Source: Agarophyton chilense (Eukaryota; Rhodophyta; Florideophyceae; Gracilariales; Gracilariaceae). From it: a DNA stretch of 64,000 nucleotides. Every line of letters starts with the position of its first letter. Positions within the stretch are counted from its first letter, which is position 1. The notes under the pieces are model-generated. The model saw nothing but the letters and a program-made list of their open reading frames with translations. It was not told where the DNA came from and ran no database searches. Positions 31,973 to 50,071 of this stretch are shown piece after piece. A program made the translations under genes and the position numbers. Location: positions 496,001-560,000 of the forward strand of contig JARGXX010000099.1 of NCBI GenBank assembly GCA_030374765.1, written 5' to 3'.

Positions 31973-31998
31973 CCGCGTCTGTGTTCTCGGAATGCTAG
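31973..31998 (+). repeat. Left terminal inverted repeat of the 18.1-kb transposon
   Basis: 26 bp beginning CCGCGTCTGTGTTC and ending GGAATGCTAG; its reverse complement matches 50046-50071 with one mismatch. It continues inward into CTAG-containing subterminal repeats. Confidence 0.88.
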
Positions 31999-32228
31999 AT
32001 AAGTGTGCTAGATAGCTAGTTTTGTAAATAAAAAGCCAAAAAATCAAAGAATTTTGCAGAATGCGCTAGTTCGGCACCTGAAAAAAAAAATTTGGAAATA
32101 AGAACTCCATGCATCTTAGTGTTTTGACCACTTAATGCAGTTTAATCTGCATTTGCAGTTTACTGGTCACTTTTGACCGCTATAGGTGGAGATCCATACC
32201 AAGGCAGTCGTCAGTACCTTCTACCTCA
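31999..32228. repeat. Left subterminal region with GCTAG-type repeats
   Basis: GCTAG at 32007, GCTAGTTTT at 32015-32023 and GCTAGTT at 32065-32071, next to the terminal repeat. CACTA- and KDZ-type transposases typically recognise short repeats near the ends; here this is inference from the clustering on both sides. Confidence 0.55.
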
Positions 32229-32880
32229 TTACCGGCCCTTTTGCTTACTAGGCTCCAGCGTTCCACCGGGAGGGTATTTGGGGTTGAAGAAGTCCACCAC
32301 CGCATTTTCAACCTCTTCCACCTCCCCACTGCTCAAGTTCCTCACACCCGGCTGCCCCACCACACACACATTTCCACCCTTCTTCTCCACATCCTTACCA
32401 ACCCTCCTCTTCTTCAGCCGACTCTCTCCAACTCCTCCCCCTTTCCATTCCTCTCTCCCCTTCTTCATCCCAGCTGGCTCCCCGCGTCTCCCTGGCGTCA
32501 CCGGCGACCCTTTCGCTCTCCCCCTCTCCTCTCCCACCTCCTTCAACACCTTCCGTGCACCCCAAATCTCCACCACCCCTTCCATGTGCACTTCCAACAC
32601 CTTCACACACCTCTTCAGTTCCTCATTCGCCCTCCACAGCTTCCCCATCTCCAGCCCCATGGGGATCCGCTCGACATCGTCAACGCCCGCGAAAGCTATC
32701 GACAAGAGCCACCGCAAGCGCAAGCGCACTCACCTTAGTGCTTCCAGTAGTACCCGCAGCCTCCCACACAGCACCCCCCCTCGAAAATCCTCTCGCCCAC
32801 CTCCGGCCTTTTATCTCCTTTTTTTGACCCGCTTTTCGCGCGCGCTCGCCCAATTTCAGTACCCTCGTACACCCCTGCAT
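32229..32880 (-). CDS. Small coiled-coil/basic protein of the transposon, probable 64-nt intron
   Basis: Exon 1 (32880-32734) encodes a basic 49-residue start, MQGCTRVLKLGERARKAGQK. A consensus donor AAG|GTGAGT at 32733 and an acceptor ...GTCGAG at 32670 remove 64 nt in phase 0, joining to exon 2 (32669-32229). Exon 2 encodes a coiled coil (LWRANEELKRCVKVLEVHME) and a Gly/Lys/Arg-rich linker, ending in a short segment VENAVVDFFNPKYPP. About 195 aa. The plus-strand frame over the same bases is Ser/Pro/Thr low-complexity and looks like the complement. Family unknown. The intron is a prediction; its size is in line with the 94-nt intron of infA. Confidence 0.5.
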
Positions 32881-33271
32881 CTACGCTCCGGATGCCCTTC
32901 ACCCCACTCATTGCTCACTCACACACTCCCATCCATATTCCTACACCTTCTATCATGTTCAGCGCTCCCTCACTACTCCCAATTTCATAGCCTTCTCATT
33001 TATAATAAACCACAATCATTCGTAACACAAACCGCCGATTACTCATAAGCCCTCTTTCCCGTTATGACTTCCATAACAACACACACTCCTACACTTTTAA
33101 CACGATAAACACCATTCAATATCATATATCTAACCTCCTTCCCAAAAACCCCTAACACCCATTCATCCACAACCATACTCCTTCTCTATTTAATCACATC
33201 TCCACACTCGCCACCCCCACCACTTCTTCAATTCCAAGCACACTGCACTCCAAACACCTTTCGCAATCAAC
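32881..33271. other. Intergenic spacer inside the transposon
   Basis: Divergent spacer between the coiled-coil gene and the reductase-like gene; C/A-rich, no gene or repeat recognised. It probably holds both promoters. Confidence 0.45.
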
Positions 33272-33961
33272 ATGACCGACTCTCTCACTGCCATCCCTTG
33301 CACCTCCGACCCAGCCGTTATTGTCGGCAGAGGCCGAATCGGCACTTTGCTTCGCAACAACGGCACCCTACAAGATGCTTTTCTCTCAACTCAAGAATTC
33401 ATCTCCGCGCAATACATCCCCGACGGCCCCATTTTCTTCTGCGGCAGAAATCATTCACTCGAAGACGTCATTCAATTCTGCCCTTCCTCCCGCAGAGAGG
33501 ATCTGGTCTTTCTTCAGAACGGAAACATTCTCCCTCTTCTTTCAACCTATGGGCTCCAAAACTGCACCAAAGCCGTTCTCTTCCTCGCCGTCCCCTCCTT
33601 TAACGCACCCCCCGAGGACGGTGTCACCCTCCTCAGTCCCCATGGTCTCACAACTGCCACCGGCAAATGGGCTCCCGCACTCGCCAATCGCCTCAGTACC
33701 GCAGGCCTCACTTGTCATGTCGTCGACCAGCCCTCCTTTTCTAAAGCTTACTACGAAAAACTCGTATGGATATCAGCTTTTAATCTCGTCGGCTCCTCTT
33801 ATGGCTTTATCACAATGCACGAAGTTGCAGTACAACACCGCACAGTCGTTTCAACCATAATGAAAGAGCTCCTCGCCATCGTCACATCCGAAACAGGAAT
33901 CGCCTACAATACAACAGAAACACTCCAAAAACTTCTGGCCCACGGAAAAACACTTACATAG
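33272..33961 (+). CDS. Ketopantoate-reductase-like (ApbA/PanE fold) protein
   Basis: 229 aa. A Rossmann nucleotide loop VIVGRGRIGTLL (about 17-27, GxGxxG) opens the protein, DLVFLQNGNILPLL (77-90) matches the family's NG motif, and EKLVWISAFNLVGSSYG (162-178) matches the C-terminal helical domain with its conserved Lys and Asn. The family reduces ketopantoate to pantoate with NADPH for coenzyme A synthesis, though many relatives have other substrates. It is about 70 residues shorter than the typical enzyme. Placement inside the transposon between a coiled-coil gene and a membrane-protein gene makes it cargo. A catalytic role is plausible; the substrate is unknown. Confidence 0.65.
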   Translation: MTDSLTAIPCTSDPAVIVGRGRIGTLLRNNGTLQDAFLSTQEFISAQYIPDGPIFFCGRNHSLEDVIQFCPSSRREDLVFLQNGNILPLLSTYGLQNCTKAVLFLAVPSFNAPPEDGVTLLSPHGLTTATGKWAPALANRLSTAGLTCHVVDQPSFSKAYYEKLVWISAFNLVGSSYGFITMHEVAVQHRTVVSTIMKELLAIVTSETGIAYNTTETLQKLLAHGKTLT

Positions 33962-34511: not shown

Positions 34512-35697
34512 ATGCAGCGCTACGAAGCACGTCTTTCCCCACCCCCTGGTTCTTCTGTCCCATGCTCAGCAGCTGTGGATATTCTTTCACAACGAACGGT
34601 TATCACCATCGACGAAGTCCTTCAAATCAAACTTCCAACCACCCAGAATGTGGTCGAAGTCAGAGGGTTCCAGAATCATATCACCAACGAGCTCATGGAC
34701 GAGATTCGTGACATTTGTACGACCACCAGGAGGCTCCCCACTCGCAACTCCCTACAGCAGCAAGATACTCTGAAACAACTGTTCAAAGAGCGGTATCATA
34801 TCGTTACCTATGTGCAGCGTACAAGGAAGACTAGCAAACAGGAACGCCTTTACTAAGATTTTCAGTTAGCAAACACTCTTCACATCGACCTTAACGTTCA
34901 CAATCACACTAACTACACTCTTCGGAGTTATAGACCCAGCTCTGCAATATACGCTTCCATTCAGATTCAACTCTCTCCTTCGGTTCATTCTCATAACGCT
35001 ATTGAGATGTTCTATCCAAAGCCTGCTACACATTCTCATAATCGAAGGAGGCGTACAATGTATAAACGCGTTATACGGGTCTCTACAAACTACGCTGTTC
35101 AATCCAAACCAGCGATATACCTGGAAGAAACGAGCCTTTCTGAAATTCGGGGCTCTACTCCTTACTCTACTCATCCCCATCAACGCCATACTTTTCCTCG
35201 TTCACCACTTCATTCCAGTCAGCGGTACCCTTTCATCAGACGTGAAGACAAATTGTATCGCCTTCTCCACAGGAGGGGCCGCAGTTGGCGCTTTGGCATA
35301 TCTTCTCCAGCTTGTTTCTATATCCTTCTTTCCAGAGTCCTATCTTAACAAAAAGTTCACAATGACCCCGGAACCACAGAGAACCTCTTTTATGAACCTC
35401 GTGCTTGGAGCCCTCTCCCACTCTTTTCAACAGGCTTTATTCATATCCAGTCCGGATGTAACCTTCCGACTACTCGGTATGAGGCTGTCGGCATGCACTT
35501 TCGCTGCACTCTCTTCAACCGCCTTCTCCACCTCTCGCATTGAGGGACATGGTGTTCCTATACTGCTTGGTAACACAGTGGATGTCGTAATCTTGATATC
35601 TTCGACAGTTGTCATTCACTATGAAAAAGTTAAAGCAAGTGCTACTCTCACGCGTTTCAATCCAGTTGTTCAGGAGTTTCTACTGAAAGACGACTGA
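34512..35697 (+). CDS. Multi-pass membrane protein of the transposon (probable short intron)
   Basis: The C-terminal exon is open from 34870 to 35697 and encodes several hydrophobic segments: FGALLLTLLIPINAILFLV, AVGALAYLLQLVSISFF, LLGMRLSACTFAALSS and VDVVILISSTVVI. It has no upstream ATG of its own. A TACTAAG/TTTTCAG/TTAG cluster at about 34852-34869 looks like a branch point and acceptor. The preceding frame from ATG 34512 (VDILSQRTVITIDEVLQIK, TLKQLFKERYHIVTY) is probably the first exon, with a donor near 34820. Exact splice sites are not settled. Not recognised as any known transporter; about 320-370 aa in total. Confidence 0.45.
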
Positions 35698-35778
35698 TCA
35701 CTATTACAAGAAAAGGGGACTACTCCACATATTACCTCAAATTGTACTCTTTATTGTTCAATAGGTAACAGATACTAT

Positions 35779-37779
35779 CTAGTCGTCGTCGTAATCCATT
35801 ATCATACCGCCGTCTTCATAGTCTCCATCTGTGTTAGCCGAGTTGAGACCCATCCCAGGTTCATCATCCTCTTCTTCATACTCCTCTTCCCCACTTTCAA
35901 CAACTACCATTTTATAATCTTCATCCCACTCCTCATCCTCATCTACCTGGACGTCTTCATCATCACCCTTGTTGGAATCATCCTCTTCGAACTTAGGCCG
36001 AAATGCTGGTTGCCTATGCACTGCGTCCGGTAGCTTGTACCCATCCGGTACCAAGTACATGTGATACCTCATGCAAACTTCCTTAACCAATGCATCCTCG
36101 TATCCAGCTCCAGCATGAAACACATCTCCTCTTCCAATAAAAATGGAGTACGGCGGAATCCTGAACTTCCTCACTACCATCGTCCGAGACAGCTGCTTCA
36201 AGCTCCTGTCGTCGGGCACGTACATGTTATGTGACCTCTCACAAACCCAAAGCATAAACGAACTCGCTCCCGACGCCATCATGAAGAACCCTGGAACCTC
36301 TCCGACGTTCTTCTCGGCATCGGTCAGTCCTCGAAAGTCCGTATGTAACACCTGCCTTGGACAGCCCTCCGCCGTACACAGCACTCGCCCCCCTGTTTCA
36401 GGGGCATACATCCTCTTCTTCCCCGACCTGTTGTTGCACAACCGAAGAGCGGCCGCAATCTGCCCAAACCTCGCATCCAACAATGCCCTTTTCCTCACCA
36501 TTAGAACGTTGTTCTCGTCTTCCTCCACAGAATCCACAATCCCCACCTTCGTCGTAATGTACCGCCCAACTCCCTTCATTCTATCTCCAGCGTCTCTCTC
36601 CTCACCAGCGTTGATTATCGGGTCCCATTTCTTTCTATTCCCTTCAATCGTCAAGTCCGGCTGGTTCAAGAAATCCGTCTGGAAGAACTCCAGCAAAGTC
36701 CCAGTCACATCCCCATCGAAGTTTACCCCCCTCTTCTTCGCCTCATCCGCCATCCCCTTGTCCGTGGCAAACTCTTCCAGCACACAAAATCCTTTCTCCA
36801 TCAGCTCACTTCTCTTAGTCGCGAAGTACTCGCGGGCCAAGTCATCCCTCTCCATTGCTGCCATCCATATCGCCTGCTCTTCATTCACAGGGTGGTCCTT
36901 CGTTGGTAGAATCACCCCAAGAACCGGTTCTTTCGTGGAACCCAGTTCCTTGTACCTGTTATGAGCAGCACGCCAATAAACCGCATGGTGAACACTTTTC
37001 AAGTCTTCTACCCTCAAGCACTCCGCCCTGGGCTTGTTCCGTAGGTAAATCATCTGCATCCAGAGGTGCTGATGCTTCACTCCATTTTCACCCGCCGGCC
37101 ACTCGCTCGGAAGTGCATTCACCAAGTACACCCACGACATACCCGACCCCCCCGCATACGGTCCCGCCCTCTTCAGCCCCTTCGGAACACCCTCCGGATT
37201 ATTGTCTTCGAAGCCACGCATTTGCACACCTTCCTCCTCTTCGTCCCCTACAAATGCACCCTGCCCCCCGTCATCATCTAGTTCATCCTCACTCGATGAG
37301 AAAACAATGAGTACATGTTCCTTCAAGAAGCGCTTCAGCTCTTTCCTGCTCATCTTCTTGAACACATCCATCACGTCAGCCGGTATTTGAGCCGCAGATG
37401 TGCCCACCGTCTTTCTCCTCTTCCTCTTCCGCTTTAAAGGCTGTTCATACTCGCGTTCATTATCACTAATGACCACAGCCTTTCTCTTCCCCATTCTCTG
37501 TCTAGGTTCCATCACCCTCTCACCCGAAGCATCCAGCCCGCGCTCAGTACCTTTTCTAGTTCGTGTGATGCGTCTGGGAACCACGGTTTCCTGGTGGGGT
37601 ACAGACTCCCCAGTACTAGACGAAGGAACATTCACAGAAGGTGGCACCTCCACCACATCCTTCTCCGCACTTGGGGACGCCAGACTCACTTTCAGACCGC
37701 CTTCAATCCGCCTTTGTGCGATTTTCATCCTCTTCGACACCAACCCCGGCCACAACCGCTTCGGACCACTGAGCTCCAT
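35779..37779 (-). CDS. 2-oxoglutarate/Fe(II) dioxygenase-like protein
   Basis: 666 aa. The N-terminal 200 residues are charged and disordered, with a KRKRKRRK nuclear-localisation-like cluster (117-122) and acidic stretches. The middle is alpha-helical (WIYLV, IWMAAMERDDL). The C-terminal double-stranded beta-helix has HTD (479-481) in RQVLHTDFRG, the distal His in GDVFHAGAGYED (555), and Arg571 in RYHMYLVPDG, spaced as in 2OG oxygenases: two His and one Asp for iron, Arg for 2OG. An acidic tail follows. Substrates of this fold include DNA bases, proteins and small molecules. Its neighbours (DNA methyltransferase-SET, ParB-like, KDZ-type transposase) make a nucleic-acid or chromatin substrate attractive, but that is inference. 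It begins 10 bp after the stop of the upstream ORF. Confidence 0.65.
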   Translation of the reverse strand: MELSGPKRLWPGLVSKRMKIAQRRIEGGLKVSLASPSAEKDVVEVPPSVNVPSSSTGESVPHQETVVPRRITRTRKGTERGLDASGERVMEPRQRMGKRKAVVISDNEREYEQPLKRKRKRRKTVGTSAAQIPADVMDVFKKMSRKELKRFLKEHVLIVFSSSEDELDDDGGQGAFVGDEEEEGVQMRGFEDNNPEGVPKGLKRAGPYAGGSGMSWVYLVNALPSEWPAGENGVKHQHLWMQMIYLRNKPRAECLRVEDLKSVHHAVYWRAAHNRYKELGSTKEPVLGVILPTKDHPVNEEQAIWMAAMERDDLAREYFATKRSELMEKGFCVLEEFATDKGMADEAKKRGVNFDGDVTGTLLEFFQTDFLNQPDLTIEGNRKKWDPIINAGEERDAGDRMKGVGRYITTKVGIVDSVEEDENNVLMVRKRALLDARFGQIAAALRLCNNRSGKKRMYAPETGGRVLCTAEGCPRQVLHTDFRGLTDAEKNVGEVPGFFMMASGASSFMLWVCERSHNMYVPDDRSLKQLSRTMVVRKFRIPPYSIFIGRGDVFHAGAGYEDALVKEVCMRYHMYLVPDGYKLPDAVHRQPAFRPKFEEDDSNKGDDEDVQVDEDEEWDEDYKMVVVESGEEEYEEEDDEPGMGLNSANTDGDYEDGGMIMDYDDD

Positions 37780-37788
37780 CTTCGCCGC

Positions 37789-39360
37789 TTACATGCAAAG
37801 GTACTCCCTTAAAGACACCTCGTTCTTTCCCATCACAATTGTGCTGTCTAGAACCTTCCCCGCCGTCAGACCCTTCTCCTTTCCCGCCCTTTTGCATAGT
37901 TGGAACATTCCTATGGCGCATTGGAAGAACTGCTTTCGCGTCTCCTGGAAACGTCCCATATTCCCCGTAGAACCCATCCTCACCCTCACATGTAGCTGCA
38001 AACAACGGATTGCGAAACGGAATATTTCGTCTTCGAGTCCTAACAACAAGTCCCTCGACACATGCGCAAGCGTTAGCACTGGACCCTCCTTGCATACGTT
38101 CTCAAAGAACTCCAGGAGACCTTCGCTCCTGACGAATTTCAACCCAAGAGTCGCATAGCGATTCAAGTGGCGCAAGCTGTAGATTCCTATAGCTTCGCTC
38201 GTCTTCAGCGCCGCAGCTATCCGTGTCGGAGTAAGGTCAGCCAACTTGGTTCTCTTATTGTCAATCAAGTTGCAAATGAAGGACACTGTCAAATGAACCT
38301 TGTCGGCGAAACTCATCTTCAACACATTTGAACTCATTTCATTGAGTACATTACCAAGACCGGGCACTTCGTTCAGCGATAAAGGCTTCCGGTCCTTTCG
38401 TCTCCAAAGAACGACATCAAGAGACCGCACAATTTCCAACCACTTTCTCCCTTCAGAGAGATCATTCTTCAGATCTCGCAGAACCAAGACGCAGTGATGA
38501 CCGTCAATGAGTATGACAGGCACCACTACCCTCCCATTGTGAACAATTTCACTGAAATCTAACTCCATTCCCCCGACGATGGCAACAGCAATCGACCCTG
38601 CCGACGCAAGCCAGCCAAAAGTTTTGCACTTTGCCATCGTCGCCGCGTTGTGTTCCGCATTCACACCTCTGACAGTCTTCTCAGGGATTTGTTTGTCATC
38701 TATGTCCACAATCAAGCGGCACTGGTCATAGTCTGAAGCAGAGATCTTCTTTTCCACGAGAGTCCTATCCACTTCCTGCGAAGGAACGGCATCGCCGTCA
38801 TCGAACAACTCTAACTCGGGACCGGTGTGAGAATCCTCGCGTACATTCACCGCTGACCCCACCTCCACAACATCTTCATCAGAATCATCCACTATCGTCA
38901 CCCTCTTTTTCGGCTTGACGGGTTGCTTCATGGCCGGCGGCACTGTTGTTGGCTGTGCCCTCTTCCCCCTCAAAGGCGTAGCAGACTCCTTCGAGGGGGT
39001 CGCGCTTTTGGGAGTCTCCGGCCGAGGAGGCCCTGGAGTCAGCATAGAGGAGACGCGTGTCATCATTGAGGTATCCCATGCGTATATACCTGCCGACACC
39101 ATATCCTTCAGCAACTCCGGCGGCTTCTCTGCTCCCTTGAAGGAGTACGGATACTTGGAGTTGATCCCCTCCTTAATTTCAGTCCTCCAGATGGCCACCA
39201 AGTCCTCTCCCGGCTTCGCAGACTGGCGCAACGAATGGCCATGCATTGCTCTGCAAAGCGCCTTCCCGGCAGCTCCACTGCCCCCAACACCTCTCAACTC
39301 CGCAGTGCCAACCATAGTACCCTTCTTCTTCCCTGTCCCATCCGCAAGGAACAACGCCAC
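37789..39360 (-). CDS. ParB/Srx-like domain protein, possibly the first exon of the dioxygenase gene
   Basis: 523 aa. The first 200 residues are basic then acidic and disordered. A ParB/sulfiredoxin-like domain spans about 214-300: CRLIVDIDDKQIPEKTVRG with the Arg, a helical TMAKCKTFGWL, then VPVILIDGHHCVLVLRDL, where DGHH is the family's signature (usually DGHHR; Cys replaces Arg). A helical C-terminal half follows. ParB-like domains bind or cut DNA or use nucleotides and often travel with DNA methyltransferases. Its stop codon overlaps a GTAAGC donor (TGCAT|GTAAGC), and splicing to an acceptor 63 or 81 nt downstream would continue in the dioxygenase frame. One long protein of about 1,170 aa is therefore possible. 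Confidence 0.6.
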   Translation of the reverse strand: MALFLADGTGKKKGTMVGTAELRGVGGSGAAGKALCRAMHGHSLRQSAKPGEDLVAIWRTEIKEGINSKYPYSFKGAEKPPELLKDMVSAGIYAWDTSMMTRVSSMLTPGPPRPETPKSATPSKESATPLRGKRAQPTTVPPAMKQPVKPKKRVTIVDDSDEDVVEVGSAVNVREDSHTGPELELFDDGDAVPSQEVDRTLVEKKISASDYDQCRLIVDIDDKQIPEKTVRGVNAEHNAATMAKCKTFGWLASAGSIAVAIVGGMELDFSEIVHNGRVVVPVILIDGHHCVLVLRDLKNDLSEGRKWLEIVRSLDVVLWRRKDRKPLSLNEVPGLGNVLNEMSSNVLKMSFADKVHLTVSFICNLIDNKRTKLADLTPTRIAAALKTSEAIGIYSLRHLNRYATLGLKFVRSEGLLEFFENVCKEGPVLTLAHVSRDLLLGLEDEIFRFAIRCLQLHVRVRMGSTGNMGRFQETRKQFFQCAIGMFQLCKRAGKEKGLTAGKVLDSTIVMGKNEVSLREYLCM

Positions 39361-39610
39361 CCTATCTCCACCAGCCAGATTGTTTCCCGATGTAGCTTAT
39401 CGCGGAGTGGCGAGTGGAGTACCCCGCGGAGTACCCCTCGCTTTCGCTTTGCCTCGAGTCATTATTGGAATCGGATCGTAGTCGGTCGAGGTTGCAAATG
39501 GTCGCAGAGCGCCTTGAGCCTTTTATGGTATTCAGACTAAGACGTATTAGATCGAGCTCCTTTGGTGGCGACTATCCGGAACACTCCCAAGAGCAGTTCG
39601 TTGCAATCAG

Positions 39611-39827: not shown

Positions 39828-39881
39828 ACATAATACATATAATTTTGTAATTTTTGGAACGCTCAGGTGTACACGGTGCAC

Positions 39882-39897
39882 TCTGTCGGCCGACAGA
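39882..39897. repeat. Perfect 16-bp palindrome TCTGTCGGCCGACAGA
   Basis: Self-complementary site whose half TCTGTCGG also occurs in the arms of the neighbouring hairpin. A GTGTACAC palindrome lies just upstream (39867-39874). Confidence 0.75.
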
Positions 39898-40068: not shown

Positions 40069-40587
40069 ATGGCTCCAGAACCCACGAGAACTTCTTCATT
40101 GCCTGCAGCAGACACCTTCGAAATGGGTAAACTGTTTGGTACGGGGGATGAAGTTATCAGGGCGTGTCTGGATTTGCGTGATCGTAACGCATTAACGACG
40201 CGGGAGGAAGATGAGCCGCGAAAATTGGGGCCCACTGCATTCATCGATTTCACAATTGCCAATCGCCACATCCTACCGGAGACCCCGAAGTTTTTTTATA
40301 CTCTCCTAGGTCCCGACCACACCAATTACACAGAAGATGAGCTCCGAGTTGTAGGAATGAGGGGCTCGAACTGTCAGAATTATTTCTCGGCGAGGTTGCT
40401 GGATATAAGGAATGGGGGCCCAGATAGGCGCGTGAGGGACTTTTGGAACGCGTACGAGGCGGTGGAGTTCAAGGGCATCCCGAAGAATGTCACTTTGACA
40501 GAGTTCTTCAAAGGTCTGGATACAACCCGAAAGAAGGCGAGCAAAAGCCGGGCTCCATTCGCGCCCGACTTCCCGACAATTTCCTAG
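40069..40587 (+). CDS. 172-aa protein upstream of the methyltransferase-SET gene
   Basis: Not recognised. A globular, mixed alpha/beta-like composition (LGPTAFIDFTIANRHIL, PKFFYTLLGPDHTNY, FWNAYEAVEFKGI) ends in a basic tail. The stop at 40585-40587 lies only 36 bp before the ATG of the methyltransferase-SET frame. A pyrimidine-rich stretch ending TTTATATTCAG (about 40612) could be a splice acceptor that fuses this ORF to the next, but I found no donor in the right phase. First gene of the plus-strand unit. Confidence 0.5.
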   Translation: MAPEPTRTSSLPAADTFEMGKLFGTGDEVIRACLDLRDRNALTTREEDEPRKLGPTAFIDFTIANRHILPETPKFFYTLLGPDHTNYTEDELRVVGMRGSNCQNYFSARLLDIRNGGPDRRVRDFWNAYEAVEFKGIPKNVTLTEFFKGLDTTRKKASKSRAPFAPDFPTIS

Positions 40588-40623
40588 AGGTTGCTGTTCC
40601 TCATTTATATTCAGTCGGTCTCT

Positions 40624-43200
40624 ATGGAGAAGAGAAGAGTCTCCCGTAATCGAAGAAAGCGGGACAGATCCTACGATACGCCATTTTCGAAGGTGGCGAT
40701 TTATGACAAACCAGTAGCTCAGCGTTTGGGCTTTGGTGTGCAGCTCGTCAATAACGCGTGGGACAGCTTCGCCCAGTATTTGGGATTCCCTGGCGCGGAA
40801 TTCATGGTTTTGCCCTTTATCCATCTACGATATTCTGATATGCAGTTCCAGGCAACCGGAAACAGAAGGGATGGGTTCTCACACAAGGACATGGCCCAAC
40901 GACTCCTTCCTGGTAGAAACCGTACTTTATTGGAGGAGGATGTCGTCCCATGGGCGTGGAACCTGCCGGAGTACGTTGACACTCCACTTCGTATGTTGGC
41001 CAAAGAGTTTCTCGCTGACCTGCACAAAGTGGTGGTGAATGAGCAGCTTTACTCTATATCAGCTCCGGAAAGATGGGACGTTCTAAAACCGTTTACATAC
41101 TCTTTGCCTAGAGTGTTTGCGGAGAGATTCGACTGCTTCTCAAACTCTCTTATCTCTACCATCTCGGAATTCATATCGCCACTAAAGCTGCGAGGGAGTG
41201 TGGAGGTGGAAGTGGTGGCTGGGACAAAGGCGGAACCCACTATGGTTATGGAAGAAGACGAGATAGAAGTTGTACCCCCTGCGAAAGATTCGGAGGCTCC
41301 GGCGGTGGAGGGTGGAGAGGGAGTGGAGGGTGGGACCGGGAATGAGGAAGACAACATGGGTGTTGGTCAGCATTCTTCCACAGCTGGACCAAGGTCGGTC
41401 GAATCTGAGTCGGTGGATATTCTGCCGCCTCACGACCTTACCTCTCTGGATGATATAATGTCTCTCCAAAAGTGCGAGTCGGAGATAGATAAGCACTGTC
41501 GAATGTACAATTGTACTTTCGAGAACCTGGTGGAGATTGACGAGACATTGCGCAGCAATGGGGTCTCTCCGATAGGGAAAGTGCAGTTGGTTCTCACGGA
41601 CCAGCCGTATAATATAGGTGCGAAGAAGAACAGGAAAAACAGCTGGTACGACGTTCTTAACCGGCAAGACATGGTGAAGACGGCGAAGTTCATCTCTAAA
41701 CTTCTGCGTCCGGGAGGGCATTTCGTTATATTCTGCGCGATTGAGCAGGTGAACGAATGGAAAGAAGTGTTGGGTCGAATCGGTTCAAAGGATGAGAATG
41801 GACAGAAGAGCAGGTCGTTTGTCGTGGACAAGGTCCAGCTGCACTTCATTCGCTCTCAAGGCAATCCGATGCGTAATCCCGGACGTAGTTCGTGCTCCCT
41901 GTTTTCCGTAACAGAGTACGCTATTCATGGAGTTCGCAGCGGGTTGTCCTACGCCGAACAACATGGCATGGTGAACTATGAGAACTTCAGCTATGTACCA
42001 TCGCGATATCCGGGTTACCATAGCGTGATTGACCAAGTGCCTCCCATGTCGAATGGTGAAACACTTCTATGGAGAAGGAAGAATGCCAAAGGAGCAGTTA
42101 CGTATCAGAAAGTGCGGGCGGAACAGAAGTCACGCGCTTTGCTGAAGGAGCTCATCAGCAGGTTTTCTCAGCCGGGAGACATAGTGGTGGACCTCTTCGC
42201 CGGAACATTTTCAACGGCCATGGCATGCATGGAACTGGAAAAGCACCGTCAGTTTCAAGGGTGTGAGCCAGATCCGCAGTGCTTTGCTCATGCGAAGCAC
42301 GCAGCCACAGTGAAATTTGCGTCATGCATGCGGAACAACGAGACGGACATTCATATAACGCAATATGTTCGGAACGCTGTGACTCGAGTGACATGCTTGT
42401 TTCCGGACGTCGTCATAGAGCGTTCGAAGTCCTGGAAAACACCTACCGGATTTCCCGAGCATCAGATGTTTCCACCCCATATCGTGGATTTTCTCTCCTC
42501 CATGTGGCAGGATAAGAATATACCGGAGATTGGGCGACGGCAGGCGCTGTATGAGTGGCCAAGAAGTTTTCAAGGAAAATTGTCACTGTTGGATTGGAAT
42601 GCTATTCTGGCAGTGGAGGCGACAGTATGTGGTTGTCCGATTGCAAAGTCGACGATAAGGCACCCGAATGCTGCAGTTGGTGTGTACACAACACGCCGGG
42701 TGATACAAGGTGAGACTGTTTGTTACTTTTACGGGACTTTGGTGTACCATAATCTTTCAAAGCGGAAGGAAGTTCATAAAGCATTCGGAGGGGGGCTATT
42801 GAAAGCGACTGCTGATCGTTTTCGGCAGTACGCGATGGAGATAAGCGTCCGATGGGAAGTGTTTCACAAGCTACCAGGAAGAATTAGTGGGGTGTCTCTT
42901 ATTCCGGTGTGGATTGTCCCTGCTCCATTTTGCTTGGGGGGAACAATTAACGACCCCAAGTATGTGGAAGGGGATAGGGACAGGGATGCGGTTGAAGACG
43001 GGTTAATGAGACGCCGAACTGCAAATGTTCGGGTCATCAGAACTCCCGGGACGGGGCGGACCCCATTTCAGTTGAGAGACTATAGATTGCTTTCTGTGCA
43101 AGCAATTCGAGATATAGAAATAGGAGAGGAGCTGTTCGCGGATTATGGGACAGAGTATATCTGGAGTATGAATAACACGCCAGTCATAGTAATCGATTAA
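40624..43200 (+). CDS. DNA amino-methyltransferase (beta class) fused to a SET domain
   Basis: 858 aa from ATG 40624. The N-terminal 180 residues are an unrecognised globular region, followed by an acidic linker (about 205-260). The methyltransferase follows. Motif IV is VLTDQPYN (D326-Y329, a variant of the [D/N]PPY box for exocyclic-amine transfer to adenine-N6 or cytosine-N4). The AdoMet motif is DIVVDLFAGTFST (about 519-531) with acidic CEPDPQ after the next strand. Motif IV before motif I defines the beta class typical of bacterial and phage enzymes. The C-terminus is a SET domain (about 683-849): AVGVYTTRRVIQGETVCYFYG, GTINDPKY where the NHS motif normally sits, and IEIGEELFADYGTEY. Both domains use AdoMet. 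Predicted to modify DNA and protein or histones; altered NHS and DPPY boxes mean activity needs proof. Confidence 0.75.
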   Translation: MEKRRVSRNRRKRDRSYDTPFSKVAIYDKPVAQRLGFGVQLVNNAWDSFAQYLGFPGAEFMVLPFIHLRYSDMQFQATGNRRDGFSHKDMAQRLLPGRNRTLLEEDVVPWAWNLPEYVDTPLRMLAKEFLADLHKVVVNEQLYSISAPERWDVLKPFTYSLPRVFAERFDCFSNSLISTISEFISPLKLRGSVEVEVVAGTKAEPTMVMEEDEIEVVPPAKDSEAPAVEGGEGVEGGTGNEEDNMGVGQHSSTAGPRSVESESVDILPPHDLTSLDDIMSLQKCESEIDKHCRMYNCTFENLVEIDETLRSNGVSPIGKVQLVLTDQPYNIGAKKNRKNSWYDVLNRQDMVKTAKFISKLLRPGGHFVIFCAIEQVNEWKEVLGRIGSKDENGQKSRSFVVDKVQLHFIRSQGNPMRNPGRSSCSLFSVTEYAIHGVRSGLSYAEQHGMVNYENFSYVPSRYPGYHSVIDQVPPMSNGETLLWRRKNAKGAVTYQKVRAEQKSRALLKELISRFSQPGDIVVDLFAGTFSTAMACMELEKHRQFQGCEPDPQCFAHAKHAATVKFASCMRNNETDIHITQYVRNAVTRVTCLFPDVVIERSKSWKTPTGFPEHQMFPPHIVDFLSSMWQDKNIPEIGRRQALYEWPRSFQGKLSLLDWNAILAVEATVCGCPIAKSTIRHPNAAVGVYTTRRVIQGETVCYFYGTLVYHNLSKRKEVHKAFGGGLLKATADRFRQYAMEISVRWEVFHKLPGRISGVSLIPVWIVPAPFCLGGTINDPKYVEGDRDRDAVEDGLMRRRTANVRVIRTPGTGRTPFQLRDYRLLSVQAIRDIEIGEELFADYGTEYIWSMNNTPVIVID

Positions 43201-43524
43201 AAGTGCATCGCTTTTGTTACTTTACTTCATTGTAGTGTACCAGATATTGTGGGCTTTTACTATGTTTGTCGCTACATATAACGTCAAAGCGTGACGTAGT
43301 ACATATGCTAAAGGAAAGTCATGTACACCGAAGGAGAAGACTTTCCCAATATCTGGTGCGTTCGAGCGCATATTTAAAATATCTGAAAAGTTTGGGGGTT
43401 TTCTGAGAACACGAAAAGGGTGGAGGTATATTTTTGGAAGCAGAATGTTTCGAAGCTTCTCTCCCATCCATCGCATTGCAACGCGTGGAAGACCATACCA
43501 CGATCGCTCTCTCTCTCTTCAACC
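43201..43524. other. Spacer upstream of the 891-aa gene
   Basis: No gene. It contains AT-rich sequence, then a CTCTCTCT tract (about 43505-43520) right before the ATG at 43525. It probably holds the 3' UTR of the methyltransferase gene and the promoter of the next gene. Confidence 0.4.
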
Positions 43525-46200
43525 ATGGCTCCGAAGCGCAAATCGAGAAGCGAGAACACTAGCGGGCGCGGTACAAAATCACGGCGGCATGGAGGGGATG
43601 CGGAGGGCGGAAGGGACAAGGGGCGTAGGCTCCAGGGCGCGAGTGGAGAGAAGGGAGGCGTGCGCCTGAGAGCTAGATCAAGGCAAGATGGTGGGGAAGG
43701 AGAGGCGAGGGGGGGCAAAGGAAAGGCTGTTCGCGCAAAGGAGACGGTGACGGAGGAGAGTGCGGAGCAAATCACGTCGCCTACGGAGCAAATCACGTCG
43801 CCTACGGAGCAAATCACGTCGCCTACGGGAGAGATGGTGCGGAGCGGCGATGGAAAACGGGATGGCGTGCGAAGCACCCGCACCCGTGTACCTAGAAGTG
43901 GATTGTGGGGGAGGGCGAGCAGAGCTCCAGGGAGGACAAGGAGAGGGAATGCATCCGAGCGGACTCTAAGTGCTGTACTCACGTCTTCAGCTGATGTGGA
44001 GCCGGTAAATCCATGCTCTGCACCTGAAGGAGGTGAAGAGATTCCGAATGAGAGGACGAAGGGGCGTAAGGAGGGAGAGAGAATGATCGGAGAACGTGGA
44101 TCCCGCCTCAGAGGCGTTGAAGAAGCAGGGGCATCGTTTACGGGTATGAGGGAAGAGGACGGTGATGATGAGATACAGAAAGGGAGAATAGAGAGTAGCC
44201 GTGGTGGGGAGGGTAGAATATGTGGACCCAGTAGTGGTCTAATCGCAGGCGCAAGAGTCGTTCGAGAGAGAACAGAAGGAGAGAGTGTTGGAGTTACCGC
44301 GGGGGAACAGGCGGAAAGACGGGAGGGGGCGAACTTGGATTACGTGGAAGAAAGGAGAGAGCGTGCAAGGGAAAGAATGGGGAGTGTTCGAGTTACAGGA
44401 AGAAGAGCGATAGACGAAAGGGAAAGCAGAGAAGTGCATGTGAGTGAGGGGGGGAGAAGGGGGTTTGCTGGAGGGAGAACACGTGGTTCAGGGGAGGAAG
44501 CCGATGGAAGAGCAGCAGTTCTTTCTCATCAGGGAGAAGATGTCGAGCGTTTGCCACCGAGAAGAGGGATGGGTTTGGGAGTTGAAGGGTTTGAGGTGAA
44601 CGCAAGGCGAAGGACGCCGGAAGGTATGCGAGTAAGGAGAAACATTGTATTCACAAGGAATAATGATAACGGGGAGAATGCGAATTTAAATGTCGTGGAG
44701 AACGCCGTCCGTATAGTGGAAGATGAAGCAAATGATGATGACATAGTTTTATTGCCGCGGTCGATGCTAATTGAGAAGATGAATGTGTTGAAGGGACAAA
44801 TGGGACGTATGAAGGAAGACAGCTACAGTGTGATGGTGAGTTTGAAAATGACCCAAACGGAGCTGGATCGGGCGAGGGAGGAAATGAAGCAGCAGAATGT
44901 GCTGATTGAGAGTTTGAGGGAGGCGTTGAAAAGTAGAATCGCTGGGGAAGGGAGGGGGGAGGGAGGCGTGACGCGGCGACGAAAGTATGACATTGGAGTG
45001 CAGGAATGCTTTTATGGATTTGCACGTCGTGTGTATGATAGGATTCTTCATTGTGCAAAACTGGAGGCATCGGAACTTTGCTTCGACACCGAGAATGTGG
45101 GTCGAAGCTGGAAGAATAGAAGTGAGGCGGTTGGGGAGAGTAGGGAGGAAAGTATGTTTGTGGTGGGAGAGAAGGAAATGGTTCCAAGATGTCCAATTGA
45201 GGTTGCATATGAGATGAGACCGTATACGCCGTCGACAGAGGGCGGGAGCCATTTGTTGTTGAAGCACGTGGTAGAGACTGAGTTAATGGGAGAGAAATGG
45301 GAGTCGATAAGGGAAGCGGGGAGGAGAGAGGAGTGCGTGGAAAATGTAAGTGCGGATAGGTGCTTGAGACAGAAGATGAAACAGACATTGAGCGATGTGG
45401 TTGGGGTGCGGAAGCGAGCAGCGCGTGATAAGCTGTTTTCCATGCTTGGATATGATTTGATCGCGAAACGAGCTAAGGTGACTGAAGGGACGGAGCTTTG
45501 GGCGGAGTTGAAGAAGCAGATTGAGGAGGCGCAGGAGAAGTTGATGGGGTCGGGGGAGGATGGGAGAGGTAAGCTGTGTGCGTTGAGAACGAGTGCGATT
45601 GAAGATATTACTTATTCTGGATCGAAGGTGTCTGAGAACTTGGAGGACTTTGGTGAGGCAGATATGTATTTTCGAAATCAGGTGTCGTTGAAAGTGTTGG
45701 AGGAGTTTATGGGCTACGCGGTAGAGAGTCACAGAAATGGAGAAAGGCAGTATGTGGATGGGACGGTGATGCATCTTGCGCGACTTGATGCATGGATTGG
45801 ATGTGTGGTGACCACGATGGATAGAGACGTTGGGCGGGGAGGCCAAAGGCAACTTTCGTTCTCGACGCTGTTTGGGAGGTTTCTGCCACTGGCTGTTGAG
45901 GACATATTGAGGGTTGCCTGGAACATGGTGAAGGATGAGTATGCTGAGCAGTTTGAGAATGATGGATTCTGTGGAGGGGATCGTAGAGATGTGAGTGGGA
46001 ATAAGGAGAGAATCGCGACGGCTGGGCTATGGATACCGTCGAGAGAGAAAATCTATCTGGCGATAAGGGAGGAGTTTTTCATGGAGAATCTCACGAGAAG
46101 ACTTGGAGCGGTTTTAGATTGCTATATAGCGTCATGTAGACCAGAAGAACCTCGGTTCAAGCGCTTAGCGTTGGGGAGTAGGCAAGGAGTGGGAGATTGA
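43525..46200 (+). CDS. Large Arg/Gly/Glu-rich coiled-coil protein of the transposon
   Basis: 891 aa from the ATG at 43525 (MAPKRKSRSENTSGRG), chosen over an upstream non-ATG extension because it gives a basic nuclear-type start. EQITSPT is repeated three times by a 21-bp tandem repeat (about 43767-43829). Residues 60-400 are disordered and full of RE/GE. A coiled coil lies at about 405-475 (LIEKMNVLKGQMGRMKED, LDRAREEMKQQNVLIESL), then a helical globular C-terminus (VQECFYGFARRVYDRIL, KQTLSDVVGVRKRAARDKLF, EDILRVAWNMVKDEYAEQF). No family recognised. It is convergent with the transposase gene (88 bp between stops) and may be a structural partner of transposition. Confidence 0.65.
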   Translation: MAPKRKSRSENTSGRGTKSRRHGGDAEGGRDKGRRLQGASGEKGGVRLRARSRQDGGEGEARGGKGKAVRAKETVTEESAEQITSPTEQITSPTEQITSPTGEMVRSGDGKRDGVRSTRTRVPRSGLWGRASRAPGRTRRGNASERTLSAVLTSSADVEPVNPCSAPEGGEEIPNERTKGRKEGERMIGERGSRLRGVEEAGASFTGMREEDGDDEIQKGRIESSRGGEGRICGPSSGLIAGARVVRERTEGESVGVTAGEQAERREGANLDYVEERRERARERMGSVRVTGRRAIDERESREVHVSEGGRRGFAGGRTRGSGEEADGRAAVLSHQGEDVERLPPRRGMGLGVEGFEVNARRRTPEGMRVRRNIVFTRNNDNGENANLNVVENAVRIVEDEANDDDIVLLPRSMLIEKMNVLKGQMGRMKEDSYSVMVSLKMTQTELDRAREEMKQQNVLIESLREALKSRIAGEGRGEGGVTRRRKYDIGVQECFYGFARRVYDRILHCAKLEASELCFDTENVGRSWKNRSEAVGESREESMFVVGEKEMVPRCPIEVAYEMRPYTPSTEGGSHLLLKHVVETELMGEKWESIREAGRREECVENVSADRCLRQKMKQTLSDVVGVRKRAARDKLFSMLGYDLIAKRAKVTEGTELWAELKKQIEEAQEKLMGSGEDGRGKLCALRTSAIEDITYSGSKVSENLEDFGEADMYFRNQVSLKVLEEFMGYAVESHRNGERQYVDGTVMHLARLDAWIGCVVTTMDRDVGRGGQRQLSFSTLFGRFLPLAVEDILRVAWNMVKDEYAEQFENDGFCGGDRRDVSGNKERIATAGLWIPSREKIYLAIREEFFMENLTRRLGAVLDCYIASCRPEEPRFKRLALGSRQGVGD

Positions 46201-46287: not shown

Positions 46288-49200
46288 TCATGTGCCTTGG
46301 GAGGTATTATTATGGGTGCCACCCAGTGGTGGTGTTGTGCTACCAGTGGTGGTGTTGGAGAAGTAGGGCTTGGCAGTTGGGTCTCGGTAGAATTTGTAGA
46401 GGTAAAATCGATGGAAGCGCCAGTGCAATCGAGGGGTGAAAGGGGGTGCGGGGTAGTTTTGACGAAGTACATGAACGGGGCCGAGAATGGAAGAGGATGG
46501 TACGAGGCCGAACCAGGGGGAGACGTTGTCGGAGTTGGAAGTGTTTGAGATAGGAATGGAGTGGGCGGTGTGGTTTTGTTCGTCGTCTGTTGCCCATCGG
46601 AGGCAGATGCAATTGAGAGAGACATCGACTTGATCCTGGGGTGGAACGAGTTCGAGGAACTGAACGAAGGCGAACTCGTTATGAGTAGAAGGGAAAAAAG
46701 GGGTGGTGAAGCGAAGAAGAGAGTTGAGCTTGCAGACCCAGGCGGTGGGAGTGGGGTTGGAGAAGCTGGAACCGGCAACGAGGATGTGGGAGAACTTTGG
46801 GGTTTTAGAGGGACCGAAGGAAAGAGCAGCGAAGATACGTTGAATGAGTGGGAGAGGGGGATCTTTGACGGCGAGCTCGTTTCGATCGGCGATGTAGTCG
46901 TCTAGGGTTGGGGTGAAGCCGCCGACGACGTATGCGGAATTGACGAATGTGAGACGGGTTTGGCGGAGAGTGGGGGAGTCCTGGTTGAGAGCTAGTGTTT
47001 CGAGTGTGAGTGTGACGAAGGAGGGGAGTGCGAGGGTTCCAATCTGTGAGATGATGGCGATAGTGTCTGGGGAGAAGAGGTCCTGAAGGGAAGAGATTGT
47101 TCAGTGGGGGTTTGCTCGAAGGAATTTGTGAGCGGTGATGAGATCGGAAAAGGAGGTGTGCTTGCCATCACGGACGAAACCTGGTTTGCGGGCTTGGAAG
47201 GGAGGGGGAGGGGCATGGGAGGATGAGGTGACGGAAAGATCAGCTGAGAGAGAAATCCAATTGTTGACGGCATCGGAGCGTTGGATGGCACGGATGGTTT
47301 CGTTGTGCGCGGTGGGCCTGCGCTTGGAGGTTCGGGAGTAATGTGCTTTGAAGAGGGTATGGGCTTGTTCGAAGATGCCTGCATCGTTGAAGTGAAGACC
47401 CCCAAAGCGTCGAATGTCGTCTACGATGTGATCGAGGAGGTGGAATTTGAGGGTGCCAAGGTTGGAGGTATGGTATGGACCGAGAACATCGACAGCTCTG
47501 TGCTTGAAGGAATGGATTTGGGAGGCGAGTTTGGCAAGACGAGAAGTGGTCCATTCGGGGACGGAGTTGTAGCACATGGAGGTGAGGAGGAGGTCTGTGT
47601 ACTTGGAGAAGACAGTTGTGATGGGAGCGGAATTGGCTTCGTCACAGCAGCGGTCGAAAAAGGCGCCGATGAAGGGGAAGACCATGTCGAGGGCGCGGTA
47701 GTCTTTTGCTTCTAGCATGCCGCGGACGCCGTCAGTTGTGAAGAAGCCGTTGAGGGACTGCCCGCTTTCGGAAGTAGAGAAGTCGATGTGGAGGCCGGTA
47801 GCTGGGGAATGATTTTCGATGGCGGTGAGGATGAAGTTGGAGTGCTTGAGGATGGAGGTGCGGACGGAGTGGACGGAACGGCGGGAGTTTGTGGAGCTGA
47901 TGGTGGTGAAGAGGTGTTCTGATCTGAGACGTTCGATGGCGGCGAGCTTGATGAGTTTGGAAACGCCGAGGTGGAAGTTGTGGAGGGGTTCGAAGGGGAA
48001 GATGTTGTATGGGGTGAGGAGGGGGGTGATGTTGAAAAGGGGGTAAGACTCGAAGAGGGAGGGGTATTTTGCGAGGGAGAGGGAGTGGAGTGCTTGGAGA
48101 GCTTGTTCCTTGAAGTTGCGCGAGACTCTTGGCTTGCGGGCGAGGAGAGCTGCTTCGGAGTCCTTGAGGAGGGAGAAGTGTTTGTTGCGGGCTGCAACGG
48201 TGAGGGGAAGAGATCGAGGGGGATGGGCGTGAGAGTGTTGGTGGAGTTGTGAGCGAGGGACAGAGCATCTGTGGCAGGGGTGCTGGGGGCGGGTGCCGTT
48301 GGAGATGGCGAGAATATCCGTTGCCTCGGGAATGTTTGCGCAGTAGCTGGCGATGATGGGGTGGCATTGACGAAGAACGCCGTCTGCGTCGCGGAAGGGG
48401 AAACCGGGGAGGGCGGAAGAGAAGAGAGGTTGAAGGAGGGAGGAGATGGTCTGCTGTATGAGTTCCATTTTTATTTGGCGGGGGATGGAGGAGGAATGAG
48501 TGATGATATCTGCATCTGGAGAAGGAGTGATTGGGGTGAAGGAGGTGGGAAGATAGCCGAGGAGTGTGAGATTGTCGGAGATGCATTTGCGGCGAAAAGA
48601 GTCGGAGAAGTTGAGAAGGGTGATGTGGAGGGAGTAGGAGGTGATGGAAGAAGATTTGAGAGAGGTAGAGGACTTGTCGGAGTAGATTTGGACGAGGCCG
48701 ATGAAGGAGTCGATACCGGTGGAGTGAGGGAGATGCCAGACGAAGTTATCTTTTGTGGACTGCATGATGGCGGTCTTGAGTGCGGGGACGACTTTTGAGC
48801 CGAGGGTGGTTGCCATGGGGTGTGCGAAGGCGGGGGAGCCGGAGGCGGATGTTTGGGAGATGGGGGTGGAAAAAGGTGTTCTTGAAGTGTGCGAGGGCGA
48901 GCTGTTGTTTGAGGACATGGATTGCGTCTTTCTGGAAGAGGGTTGCGGAGAAGCGTTTGTGGGGATCAAAGATGGTGGAGGGGGCGAAACCAATGGACCT
49001 GATTCTCTGGTGGAAGAGGTCTGCCTGGAGCTCGAGGCATTGTTTTGCGGAGGAGACTGAGTTCTGGAATGTTGATTAGGGGAAGTGGGGATAATTAAGG
49101 AGAGTGATGAGTTCGTCAGCCTTTCGTTGTCCGAGCTTGGAGGCGATGGAGGAGATGTAGAGAACCATTTTCTCCAGGTGGGGGTTGTCGAGGGGGGGAG

Positions 49201-49553
49201 TGGAAGGAGGGAGGGGGGAAAGAGCGAGAGAGGAGGGGGAACCGAGAGAGGCAGTGGCGACGTGGATGGCGTCCTGGGTGTGGAGAGAGAGAGAGAGCTG
49301 GTCTTGGAGGTAGGAGTCATGGTGTGCGAGAGGGACGTTGTCGGAAGGGCGATGTGAGGGAGGAGGATGAGGGGGGAGTTGTGGGGTGGACTTGTGGCGT
49401 TTTGTGCGGGGGGGGGAAGCTGGGTTCATTTCCGCCAGGGGATAGCAAGCGCTTGTTGGCGGAGAGGCGATGAGGGCACCTTCTCTGGTGCCGCTGGAGG
49501 GCGGGGATTTCTCGGGCGAAGAAGGAGCATCCGTTGAAGCAGCAGGAAGGCAT
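46288..49553 (-). pseudogene. KDZ/CACTA-like transposase with zinc finger, interrupted by stops and frameshifts
   Basis: From ATG 49553: a zinc-finger start CCFNGCSFFAREIPALQRHQ, as in fungal Plavaka proteins. The frame shifts at a 9-G run (49408-49416). The next part reads DNVPLAHHDSYLQDQLSLSL to GQRKADELITLLNYPHFP, then TAA (49076), then QNSVSSAKQCLELQADLFHQ in the same frame. A second frame change near 48.8 kb leads to the catalytic core: LVQIYSDKSS (Asp codon at 48676), an NIPEATDIL segment with PCHRC, FEPLHNFHLGV (about 47.98 kb) and GIFEQAHTLFKAHY (Glu codon at 47368). TGA at 47101 is followed in the same frame by 270 more codons without ATG (DLFSPDTIAIISQIG, WFGLVPSSILGPVHVLRQN) to a stop at 46288. 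Short introns could explain some breaks, but no donor with matching phase was found. Confidence 0.75.
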
Positions 49554-49859
49554 GGTGGGTGGAGGAGAGGTGGTGGGAAAGAAGTTGGTAGGGGGCGTAG
49601 ACGGAGAGAGAGTATGGCGCACACAGGGCACGTGACAGGGGAGGGCGGTGGAGAATAATATAGAATGCAAGGCACGTGAGGTCTGCCAGGTCGGGCTGCG
49701 ATTCTATTGCGATTGATATGGATGGTACTAAATGTTCAATTTCTATTTTGAGGTCCATTTTGGGACCAGTTGTTTGTACTAATCTGTCAATCTAGAGCGC
49801 ACAAAGATTGAATCTGCTCCTGCACTACTTCTCTACTTTTACCTTTAAACTGCGGCGAC

Positions 49860-50045
49860 ATAAAGATTCACGCTAGTTTTACCTCCATCACAACTAGAAA
49901 AACTGCAGATATGTGCTAGTTTTCCTTCCCATACAAACTAGGACTAATGAACGAATGAAAATATTTTCGGAAATTAACACCTCCAAATTTGGATAAATTC
50001 ACGGGTTTTTCGGTCATTTCAATTCGTCCTTTTCTGACAACTGAA
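49860..50045. repeat. Right subterminal region with GCTAGTTTT/AACTAG repeats
   Basis: GCTAGTTTT at 49872-49880 and 49915-49923, and AACTAG at 49892, 49936 and 50044. This is the same short motif as in the left subterminal region, in both orientations, in an otherwise AT-rich gene-free stretch. Confidence 0.55.
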
Positions 50046-50071
50046 CTAGCATTCCGAGAACACTGACGCGG
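50046..50071 (-). repeat. Right terminal inverted repeat of the 18.1-kb transposon
   Basis: Begins CTAGCATTCCGAGAAC and ends GACGCGG; inverted copy of 31973-31998, 25 of 26 bases identical. Confidence 0.88.

Follow-up and report, generated by a model that had tools for sequence, protein, structure and literature searches.

Plavaka DNA transposons have been grouped with CACTA/EnSpm elements rather than with KDZ elements in a study (PMC12730594) which also defines their termini, their target duplications and the C(2)C and H motifs of their transposases, and which reports that some families carry TET/JBP genes. Giant Plavaka repeats containing genes with matches in red algae are described in Amoebidium (PMC11244446). 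As for red algae themselves, PMC12477816 cites work on Bostrychia (Petroll et al. 2025) for giant EnSpm elements that harbour accessory genes; it also reports a protein joining ParB to an N6/N4-methyltransferase in a Sola1 element of Ectocarpus and mentions that similar proteins are known in red algae. Here we analyse a stretch of 64,000 nucleotides (hereafter the window) located on contig C99 of the Agarophyton chilense assembly, and more particularly an 18,093-bp unit within it, at positions 31976–50068. This unit is one copy of a giant Plavaka DNA transposon that moves as a single 18–19 kb piece, generates 2-bp target duplications and has been active recently. It carries a divergent two-gene cargo, in which one gene encodes a DNA methyltransferase (MTase) fused to a SET domain and the other a ParB-like region fused to a 2-oxoglutarate (2OG)-dioxygenase-like domain.

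Ends, copies and transposition

The assembly comprises 80 Mb in 135 contigs. The whole genome was searched with a query of 251 bp over the left end and another of 301 bp over the right end, and each led to 40 scored copies, among 127 and 134 first-look candidates, respectively. Whole-genome searches score the best candidates only, so that these copy numbers, like the others given below, are lower bounds. The end matches found elsewhere are 96–99% identical to the query and the similarity ceases at, or a few bases from, the element edge. From 15 paired ends noted, ten other copies longer than 15 kb and possessing both ends were fetched. In pieces above 500 bp these match the window copy collinearly at 96.8–98.5% identity; five of the ten (C88, C135, C25, C2 and C128) have internal deletions. 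Their alignment set the edges of the unit. The 26-bp inverted repeats with 25 identical positions reported by the first-pass annotation do exist as a match, but the outer three bases are not part of the element. The true terminal inverted repeat is 23 bp long (31976–31998 on the plus strand and 50046–50068 on the minus strand) and identical at 22 of 23 positions between the ends; the CG pair lying outside it on each side (31974–31975 and 50069–50070, as placed by the copy alignment) is the 2-bp target duplication, self-complementary by chance, and one further chance base completes the apparent 26-bp repeat. The short repeats noticed inside both ends hold up as well: GCTAGTTTT has three exact copies in the unit, each at most about 200 bp from an end. 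One is on the left, where it extends one of four GCTAG repeats (31994–32069, plus strand; at 19, 32, 40 and 90 bp from the end), and two are on the right (49872–49923, plus strand). No foldable hairpin was found at the left end (folding z of +1.03).

When the flanks of the window copy and of the ten others were compared, an exact 2-bp duplication was found in 10 of the 11 pairs (TA four times, AT twice, CG twice, AG and TG once each), the eleventh being an inexact CA/CG. Empty sites were sought by joining the flanks, removing one duplicate and matching the product against places already in hand. A site spanning the junction was found for six of the 11 copies (C79a, C10, C88, C135, C25 and the window copy), while the other five had none there; the matches are ungapped at the junction, save for one missing base beside it in the match of the window copy. 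The site of C79a corresponds to a Ty3-type element present inside the same window (28076–28475). Dozens of copies, flank duplications and empty sites together demonstrate transposition of exactly this unit, and the genome-wide search of the ends, which had been proposed as a check, thus revealed copies that share ends, differ in flanks, bear target duplications and mostly have the same cargo. Two copies with different flanks, C10 and C117a, share 99.5% identity along 18.7 kb and keep all three main genes open, so that movement was recent; the older copies are each closer to C10/C117a than to one another, as expected of a recently active source lineage. Judging from the transposase family, movement would be of the cut-and-paste type.

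The surroundings of the window copy include, on the left, a Ty3-type retrotransposon with reverse transcriptase, RNase H and integrase (27024–29720), whose relative on C79 carries a Plavaka insertion, and, on the right, a gene with an RWP-RK domain (53002–54240, minus strand).

The transposase gene (46288–49553, minus strand) is interrupted in the window and forms a frame of 1137 codons in other copies. Its product matches the Plavaka profile PF18759 above the cut-off (6.7e-20 in the window, 1.4e-22 in C10), and the genome yielded 123 scored Plavaka matches out of 235 candidates. Inspection by eye revealed a C2H2-like finger near the N-terminus and, ahead of the last catalytic E, the C(2)C and H(3-4)H motifs of Plavaka (CHRC and HLLDH...FEQAH). 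The exact 2-bp duplications agree with the 2 bp (or 3 bp) that characterize the group. The termini, CGTCT..TGACG, differ from TGT..ACA (PlavakaA) and from CATCA..TGATG (PlavakaB), although three of five positions agree with the latter; since these definitions stem from fungal families, PlavakaA and PlavakaB are excluded and wider Plavaka membership rests on the transposase. Of the initial description of this protein as KDZ/CACTA-like, the CACTA relationship stands and KDZ has to be replaced by Plavaka. Strict CACTA/EnSpm membership was rejected, as it calls for a 3-bp duplication and CAC..GTG termini, neither of which is present. So was KDZ (Zisupton) membership, which calls for an 8-bp duplication where the element has 2 bp; Plavaka is also placed elsewhere in PMC12730594.

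Gene content of the window copy and of intact copies

The window copy is a decayed one. It has three in-frame stops at sites where the other fetched copies that span them have sense codons (10 of 10 for the ParB-like/2OG gene, 8 of 8 at the second site, which two copies have deleted, and 10 of 10 for the transposase). The first count of genes was for this reason too high: the seven or more additional long open reading frames (ORFs) exist, but they make fewer genes, because several join in other copies, namely the ParB-like ORF with the 2OG one, a 172-aa ORF with MTase-SET, and two transposase ORFs with each other. Near 39,890, six other copies have 0.3–0.7 kb, bounded by two short direct repeats, that the window copy lacks. 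In C10 the three main genes encompass 1247 codons (ParB-like-2OG), 1043 aa (MTase-SET) and 1137 codons (transposase).

The ParB-like-2OG gene lies at 35779–39396 on the minus strand and is a 1247-codon frame in intact copies, which a stop at 37789 splits in the window copy; its 2OG-dioxygenase-like domain (HTD ... GDVFHAG ... RYH) maps to 36028–36735 and its putative ParB-like region, characterized by a DGHHR motif whose Arg is altered in the window copy, to 38263–38739, both on the minus strand. The MTase-SET gene is found on the plus strand at 40069–43200 (1043 aa when intact, interrupted before 40588 in the window), with the N6_N4_Mtase domain at 41581–42294 (by profile) and the SET domain at 42673–43149 (mapped from the collinear copy C10). 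Where the intact copy reads DPPY, the window copy reads DQPY. Most other fetched copies have stops of their own, and C2, C25 and C128 have deletions within MTase-SET; for ParB-like-2OG, 12 of the 37 scored genome matches are stop-free across the matched stretch.

Besides the main genes, C10 bears three ORFs: one resembling ketopantoate reductase, one of 275 aa that is hydrophobic, and a long charged one that is interrupted. Their counterparts in the window are all on the plus strand. The first (33272–33961; about 274 aa in some other copies) has a weak similarity, below the cut-off for both ApbA_C (0.077) and PRK06249 (0.0076); the second (34870–35697), hydrophobic by eye, matches no family over the cut-off. 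The third (43525–46200, also delimited as 43387–46200) belongs to no family that we could find and contains short internal repeats, including a repeated seven-residue unit, EQITSPT. It has stops in nine of the ten other fetched copies, most of which differ by indels, several of 18–23 bp, and consequently this ORF may be dispensable or spliced. A scan of the intergenic region for sigma-type promoters and terminators gave 1 and 0, against 0.5 and 0.6 in shuffled sequences.

Domains of the cargo proteins

The MTase-SET fusion proposed by the first-pass annotation is supported, for both parts, by profile search on an intact copy (N6_N4_Mtase, 3.4e-18; SET, 8.2e-5). The SET score is 23.4 bits for a cut-off of 22.4 bits; it rises to 25.9 bits in a second family of the gene (see next section) and is 0.1 bit under the cut-off in the window copy. 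The 1043-aa protein has DPPYN at 511 and DLFAGT at 708, i.e. DPPY before an FxGxG-type motif, an order which we take to be that of the beta class of amino DNA methyltransferases. Its sequence-level relatives in the PDB are the DpnA, CcrM, RsrI, MboIIA and PvuII methyltransferases. A DPPY motif favours N6-adenine over N4-cytosine as the target. It has been pointed out that an amino-methyltransferase domain alone does not prove which base is modified (PMC8885841).

The 2OG-like domain is likely to be a dioxygenase, given that HTD, GDVFHAG and RYH (the HxD...H...R pattern) are invariant between the transposon's version and a 58%-identical one in the second family. To this extent the earlier proposal of a 2OG dioxygenase is backed; searches of Pfam, NCBIfam and PDB sequences gave no match, beyond weak unrelated names. 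TET/JBP identity was considered and rejected, PF12851 yielding no candidate in the genome at E≤10, with a control that matched 1 of 14 genomes, below the cut-off, which leaves the sensitivity of this profile unproven. The ParB-like protein, at first listed as a separate gene, is in one frame with 2OG in intact copies. Its DGHHR motif, in which we presume a likeness to ParB, is followed by what appears by eye to be a helix-turn-helix-like stretch, and identity with the ParB N-terminal domain is possible; there is no ParB match in Pfam or NCBIfam, and hhalign against a narrow set of N15-type ParB proteins, a weak test, gave 0.1%.

Searches for relatives elsewhere were also carried out. In viruses (IMG/VR, with a peptide-seeded search that finds close relatives only), there was no pattern match for cargo protein P0001 and one for MTase-SET, which is not a relative. 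A phage collection gave no match for P0001, and the phage and plasmid matches to MTase-SET fall inside the methyltransferase domain (among the best 25 of 98 and the best 15 of 109 records). A viral origin of the cargo was rejected within the reach of these searches. Comparison of MTase-SET with a defence-system library returned methyltransferase models and one MADS-system model (mad2, 4.1e-7) among the best 25 of 41 families; the same library gave no match for three other element proteins.

A second family of the gene pair near contig ends

Running the N6_N4_Mtase profile against the genome, with all 121 candidates scored and 130 match rows obtained, revealed two main families, the transposon's and another consisting mostly of 1130–1141-codon frames near contig ends. 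A full-length member of the latter, on C25, has the same N-terminal region followed by MTase and SET, is 35% identical to the transposon's protein over 1067 aligned positions and keeps DPPYNIR and VVDLFAGT. A similar search with the 2OG domain (142 of 142 candidates scored) gave 13 second-family matches, 58% identical and all stop-free, many of them on the same contigs as second-family MTases; 10 of the 13 are in frames of 1233–1335 codons, mostly 1316, and the ParB-like region at these loci is 43% identical. When three partial matches are added, a divergent MTase-SET is found 7–13 kb off in 13 of 16 cases. The gene pair of the transposon thus recurs, with diverged but still open frames, as a second family located mostly near contig ends. 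For comparison, among 54 transposon-type 2OG copies (a count that leaves out 14 rows of split copies), a divergent MTase is present at 3–7 kb in 44 and an upstream transposase in 46, with 41 copies possessing the two together.

A gene for an OrsD domain (C2H2-type), with a frame of up to 1880 codons, adjoins the second-family MTase-SET. It is found 2.5–2.9 kb downstream of the MTase in 32 of 33 matches, and 6 of the 38 OrsD matches are without a second-family MTase. The extent of the contig is known for 13 of the 33 MTase matches: all 13 are oriented away from the contig end closest to them, which is within 16 kb for 12 and at 58 kb for the last. The second-family units look like a homogenized subtelomeric repeat, and OrsD proteins at chromosome ends recall, in our opinion, fungal telomere-linked helicases. 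One such unit is represented by C25:1-9000 (ORFs 3199–6624 and 7495–9000); there are 32 other second-family MTase matches.

Other relatives are in a poorer state. A third set, of about 26–54% identity, is dispersed through the genome; its members have many stops and seem to be old, dead copies of the ParB-like-2OG/MTase module. At C21:639435-666860 there are six tandem ParB-like matches (40–41% identity), about 5–5.5 kb apart and with one TAG each, which form an array of the second-family gene. Short MTase fragments in 165-codon frames with one TAG (C79:655360, C105:1199179, C71:762401, C128:250771, C68:3647902 and C95:188333) are probably what is left of another old family of this domain, now dead.

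Host setting and mutation patterns

That the host is a red alga, as first thought, is borne out by the phycobilisome linker: all 13 candidates gave matches, which lie on six contigs and on the plastid-like C39. The same linker genes are repeated on C39 185.7 kb apart, and for this reason C39 is probably a plastid genome doubled in the assembly.

A six-frame scan of this one assembly gave no match to the C5-cytosine methyltransferase profile PF00145, although introns or gaps could hide such a gene; the controls were prokaryotes, 10 of 14 genomes being matched. Red algae are not uniformly devoid of C5-methyltransferase genes, since a DNMT3-like protein is reported in Cyanidioschyzon merolae, together with cytosine-methylation assays in Gracilaria dura and Gracilariopsis (PMC9861306). 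Because PF00145 gave no match, the DNA-methyltransferase genes visible here would be the bacterial-type amino-methyltransferases of the transposon and of the contig ends (no search for METTL4-type enzymes was made). A signature of 5-methylcytosine (5mC) deamination was looked for among the private changes of the copies and dismissed. CpG sites have more transitions than other C/G sites (0.0107 and 0.0068 per site, respectively), but the excess of transversions is of similar size (0.0081 and 0.0056), so that there is no specific signal; the CpG depletion of the element, given below, speaks against this dismissal.

Comparison of the two cargo families places the greatest divergence at third codon positions, 0.56 against 0.30–0.32 for 2OG and 0.70 against 0.39–0.51 for MTase-SET, as expected if the proteins are constrained; synonymous divergence is saturated and therefore no omega is given. 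In these alignments constraint is visible only between families.

What the cargo could do

Taken as a whole, the data could describe an active Plavaka transposon whose cargo pair sets the chromatin state of the element's own DNA, a reading to which we give an even chance. The methyltransferase arm would mark DNA with N6-methyladenine, as its DPPY motif suggests, or with N4-methylcytosine; the substrate of the SET arm would be a histone or another chromatin protein. The dioxygenase arm would remove N-methyl groups by oxidation, which is the chemistry of AlkB-type enzymes, and the ParB-like part would target or cleave DNA. Together they would set a chromatin state that lets the transposase be expressed or reach the ends, in a host apparently without C5-cytosine methyltransferase genes, and the outcome would be escape from silencing or a timing of transposition. 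The nearest functional analogy is maize Spm, where TnpA binds the subterminal repeats and reverses the element's own silencing. It is more doubtful, and we only suggest it tentatively, that the two genes constitute a portable cassette common to the transposon and to chromosome ends, in which one protein would methylate both DNA and a chromatin lysine and the other would locate DNA and strip off methyl groups, so that selfish repeats in a red alga lacking C5 methylation would have a DNA-marking system independent of the host.

Several observations weigh against a functional cargo. Among the ten other fetched copies, only C10 and C117a have an uninterrupted MTase-SET, and the long charged ORF is interrupted even in these two youngest ones. 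SET lysine methyltransferases usually show NHS and DYG motifs; DYG is present, but inspection reveals IND in place of NHS. The 2OG-like and ParB-like regions are, as said above, without profile match. The private mutations of the copies have nonsynonymous/synonymous ratios of 0.73–1.05 per ORF, which fits decay, and the shared changes, 3–23 per ORF, are too few to judge, so that selection on the cargo is not visible within the family; for individual copies this is what is expected if they are dead. Finally, the element has a CpG observed/expected ratio of 0.86, compared with 1.02 for the remainder of the window; such a mild depletion is not what one would expect had C5 methylation always been absent.

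One explanation that accommodates neutral-looking private substitutions is that the pair is a passive passenger, captured from the host or from a chromosome end, carried unused, and persisting since intact parents are copied whole. The facts that 10 of the 54 counted 2OG copies are without a detected divergent MTase, that C2, C25 and C128 are deleted within MTase-SET, and that the pair is present elsewhere in the genome go in the same direction. We nevertheless find it rather unlikely: pair and transposase are kept together in 41 of the 54 counted copies, the youngest fetched copies have the pair open, its conservation extends to a homologue of 35–58% identity, and the older relatives (about 26–54%, with many stops) suggest a long association of the module with repeats. 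The same chance can be granted to the view that the pair is primarily a chromosome-end system, working with the OrsD gene to stabilize or silence subtelomeric chromatin and putatively stolen by the transposon, which would then mimic a protected end. The nearly constant OrsD neighbour (32 of 33) and the orientation and position of the second-family MTases (13 of 13 pointing away from the nearest contig end, 12 of 13 within 16 kb) speak for it, but contig ends are not proven telomeres, the one contig start that was read has no telomere-like tandem repeat, and the extent of the contig is known for 13 of the 33 matches only.

An addiction or restriction-modification-like device, in which the MTase would shield DNA from a ParB-like nuclease and loss of the element would be punished, is brought to mind by the pairing of a type II-like MTase class with a possible ParB/nuclease-like region. 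We consider it highly improbable, because the ParB/nuclease identity is without support, because the fusion of one partner to a dioxygenase-like domain and of the MTase to SET is unlike a restriction pair, and because dozens of copies would make loss rare. As for an artefact, i.e. neighbouring host genes lying between chance repeats, it is refuted by the dozens of copies, their differing flanks, the target duplications and the empty sites, and deserves practically no credit.

If the cassette of the transposon works as its domains suggest, it would be a case of a eukaryotic mobile element equipped both to write marks on DNA and histones and to erase bacterial-type methyl marks by oxidation. It would then offer a testable instance of a transposon controlling its own chromatin where the usual 5mC genes are not found. 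The chromosome-end twin raises the question of whether the transposon cargo is the source of a subtelomeric chromatin system or is derived from it.

Comparison with known systems

Mobile elements carrying methyltransferases of other kinds are known. DNMT retrotransposons (PMC5890265) have C5 enzymes and are found in dinoflagellates and charophytes, and the virus-borne Mariner (PMC3627910) has C5 or Methyltransf_26 enzymes and resides in giant viruses; unlike the element described here, neither has SET, 2OG or Plavaka components. The N4CMT of bdelloid rotifers, whose genomes lack C5 methyltransferases (PMC8885841), is likewise an amino-methyltransferase of bacterial type with a link to chromatin. 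In contrast with our case, it is a host gene, with a chromodomain instead of SET and SPPY instead of DPPY, and not a transposon cargo. The Plavaka elements of the CMCT clade (PMC12730594) share with ours the transposase domain, the 2-bp duplications, the C(2)C and H(3)H motifs and, in some families, an epigenetic cargo. They are, however, fungal, with TET/JBP as cargo and other termini, whereas the present element is from a red alga and carries MTase-SET and ParB-like-2OG. The Amoebidium Plavaka repeats (PMC11244446) are also unlike it, their cargo being tyrosine recombinases and their arrangement tandem clusters of up to 50 kb.

The first-pass annotation knew of no described element with this gene set, a statement that has to be withdrawn in its general form in view of the ParB and N6/N4-methyltransferase protein of Ectocarpus and its red-algal counterparts (PMC12477816). 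Sola1-1_Ec32 resembles our element in being a giant DNA transposon (21.5 kb) and in that one accessory gene, on the other strand than the transposase, encodes an N6/N4 methyltransferase; it differs in that ParB-like and MTase parts are in one 1104-aa protein, whereas in our element SET is the fusion partner of the MTase and the dioxygenase-like domain that of the ParB-like region. The red-algal giant EnSpm elements, known to us via PMC12477816, are close in host group, in giant size, in having multiple accessory genes and apparently in encoding ParB/methyltransferase-type proteins. Among the matches listed by searches of full-text literature from which most subscription journals are absent, no mention was seen of a transposon-borne MTase-SET fusion, of a ParB-like-dioxygenase fusion or of a chromosome-end twin. 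Methyltransferase cargo in red-algal giant transposons is, as a general idea, already in print, and the new part is, we believe, the two fusions and the gene pair at chromosome ends.

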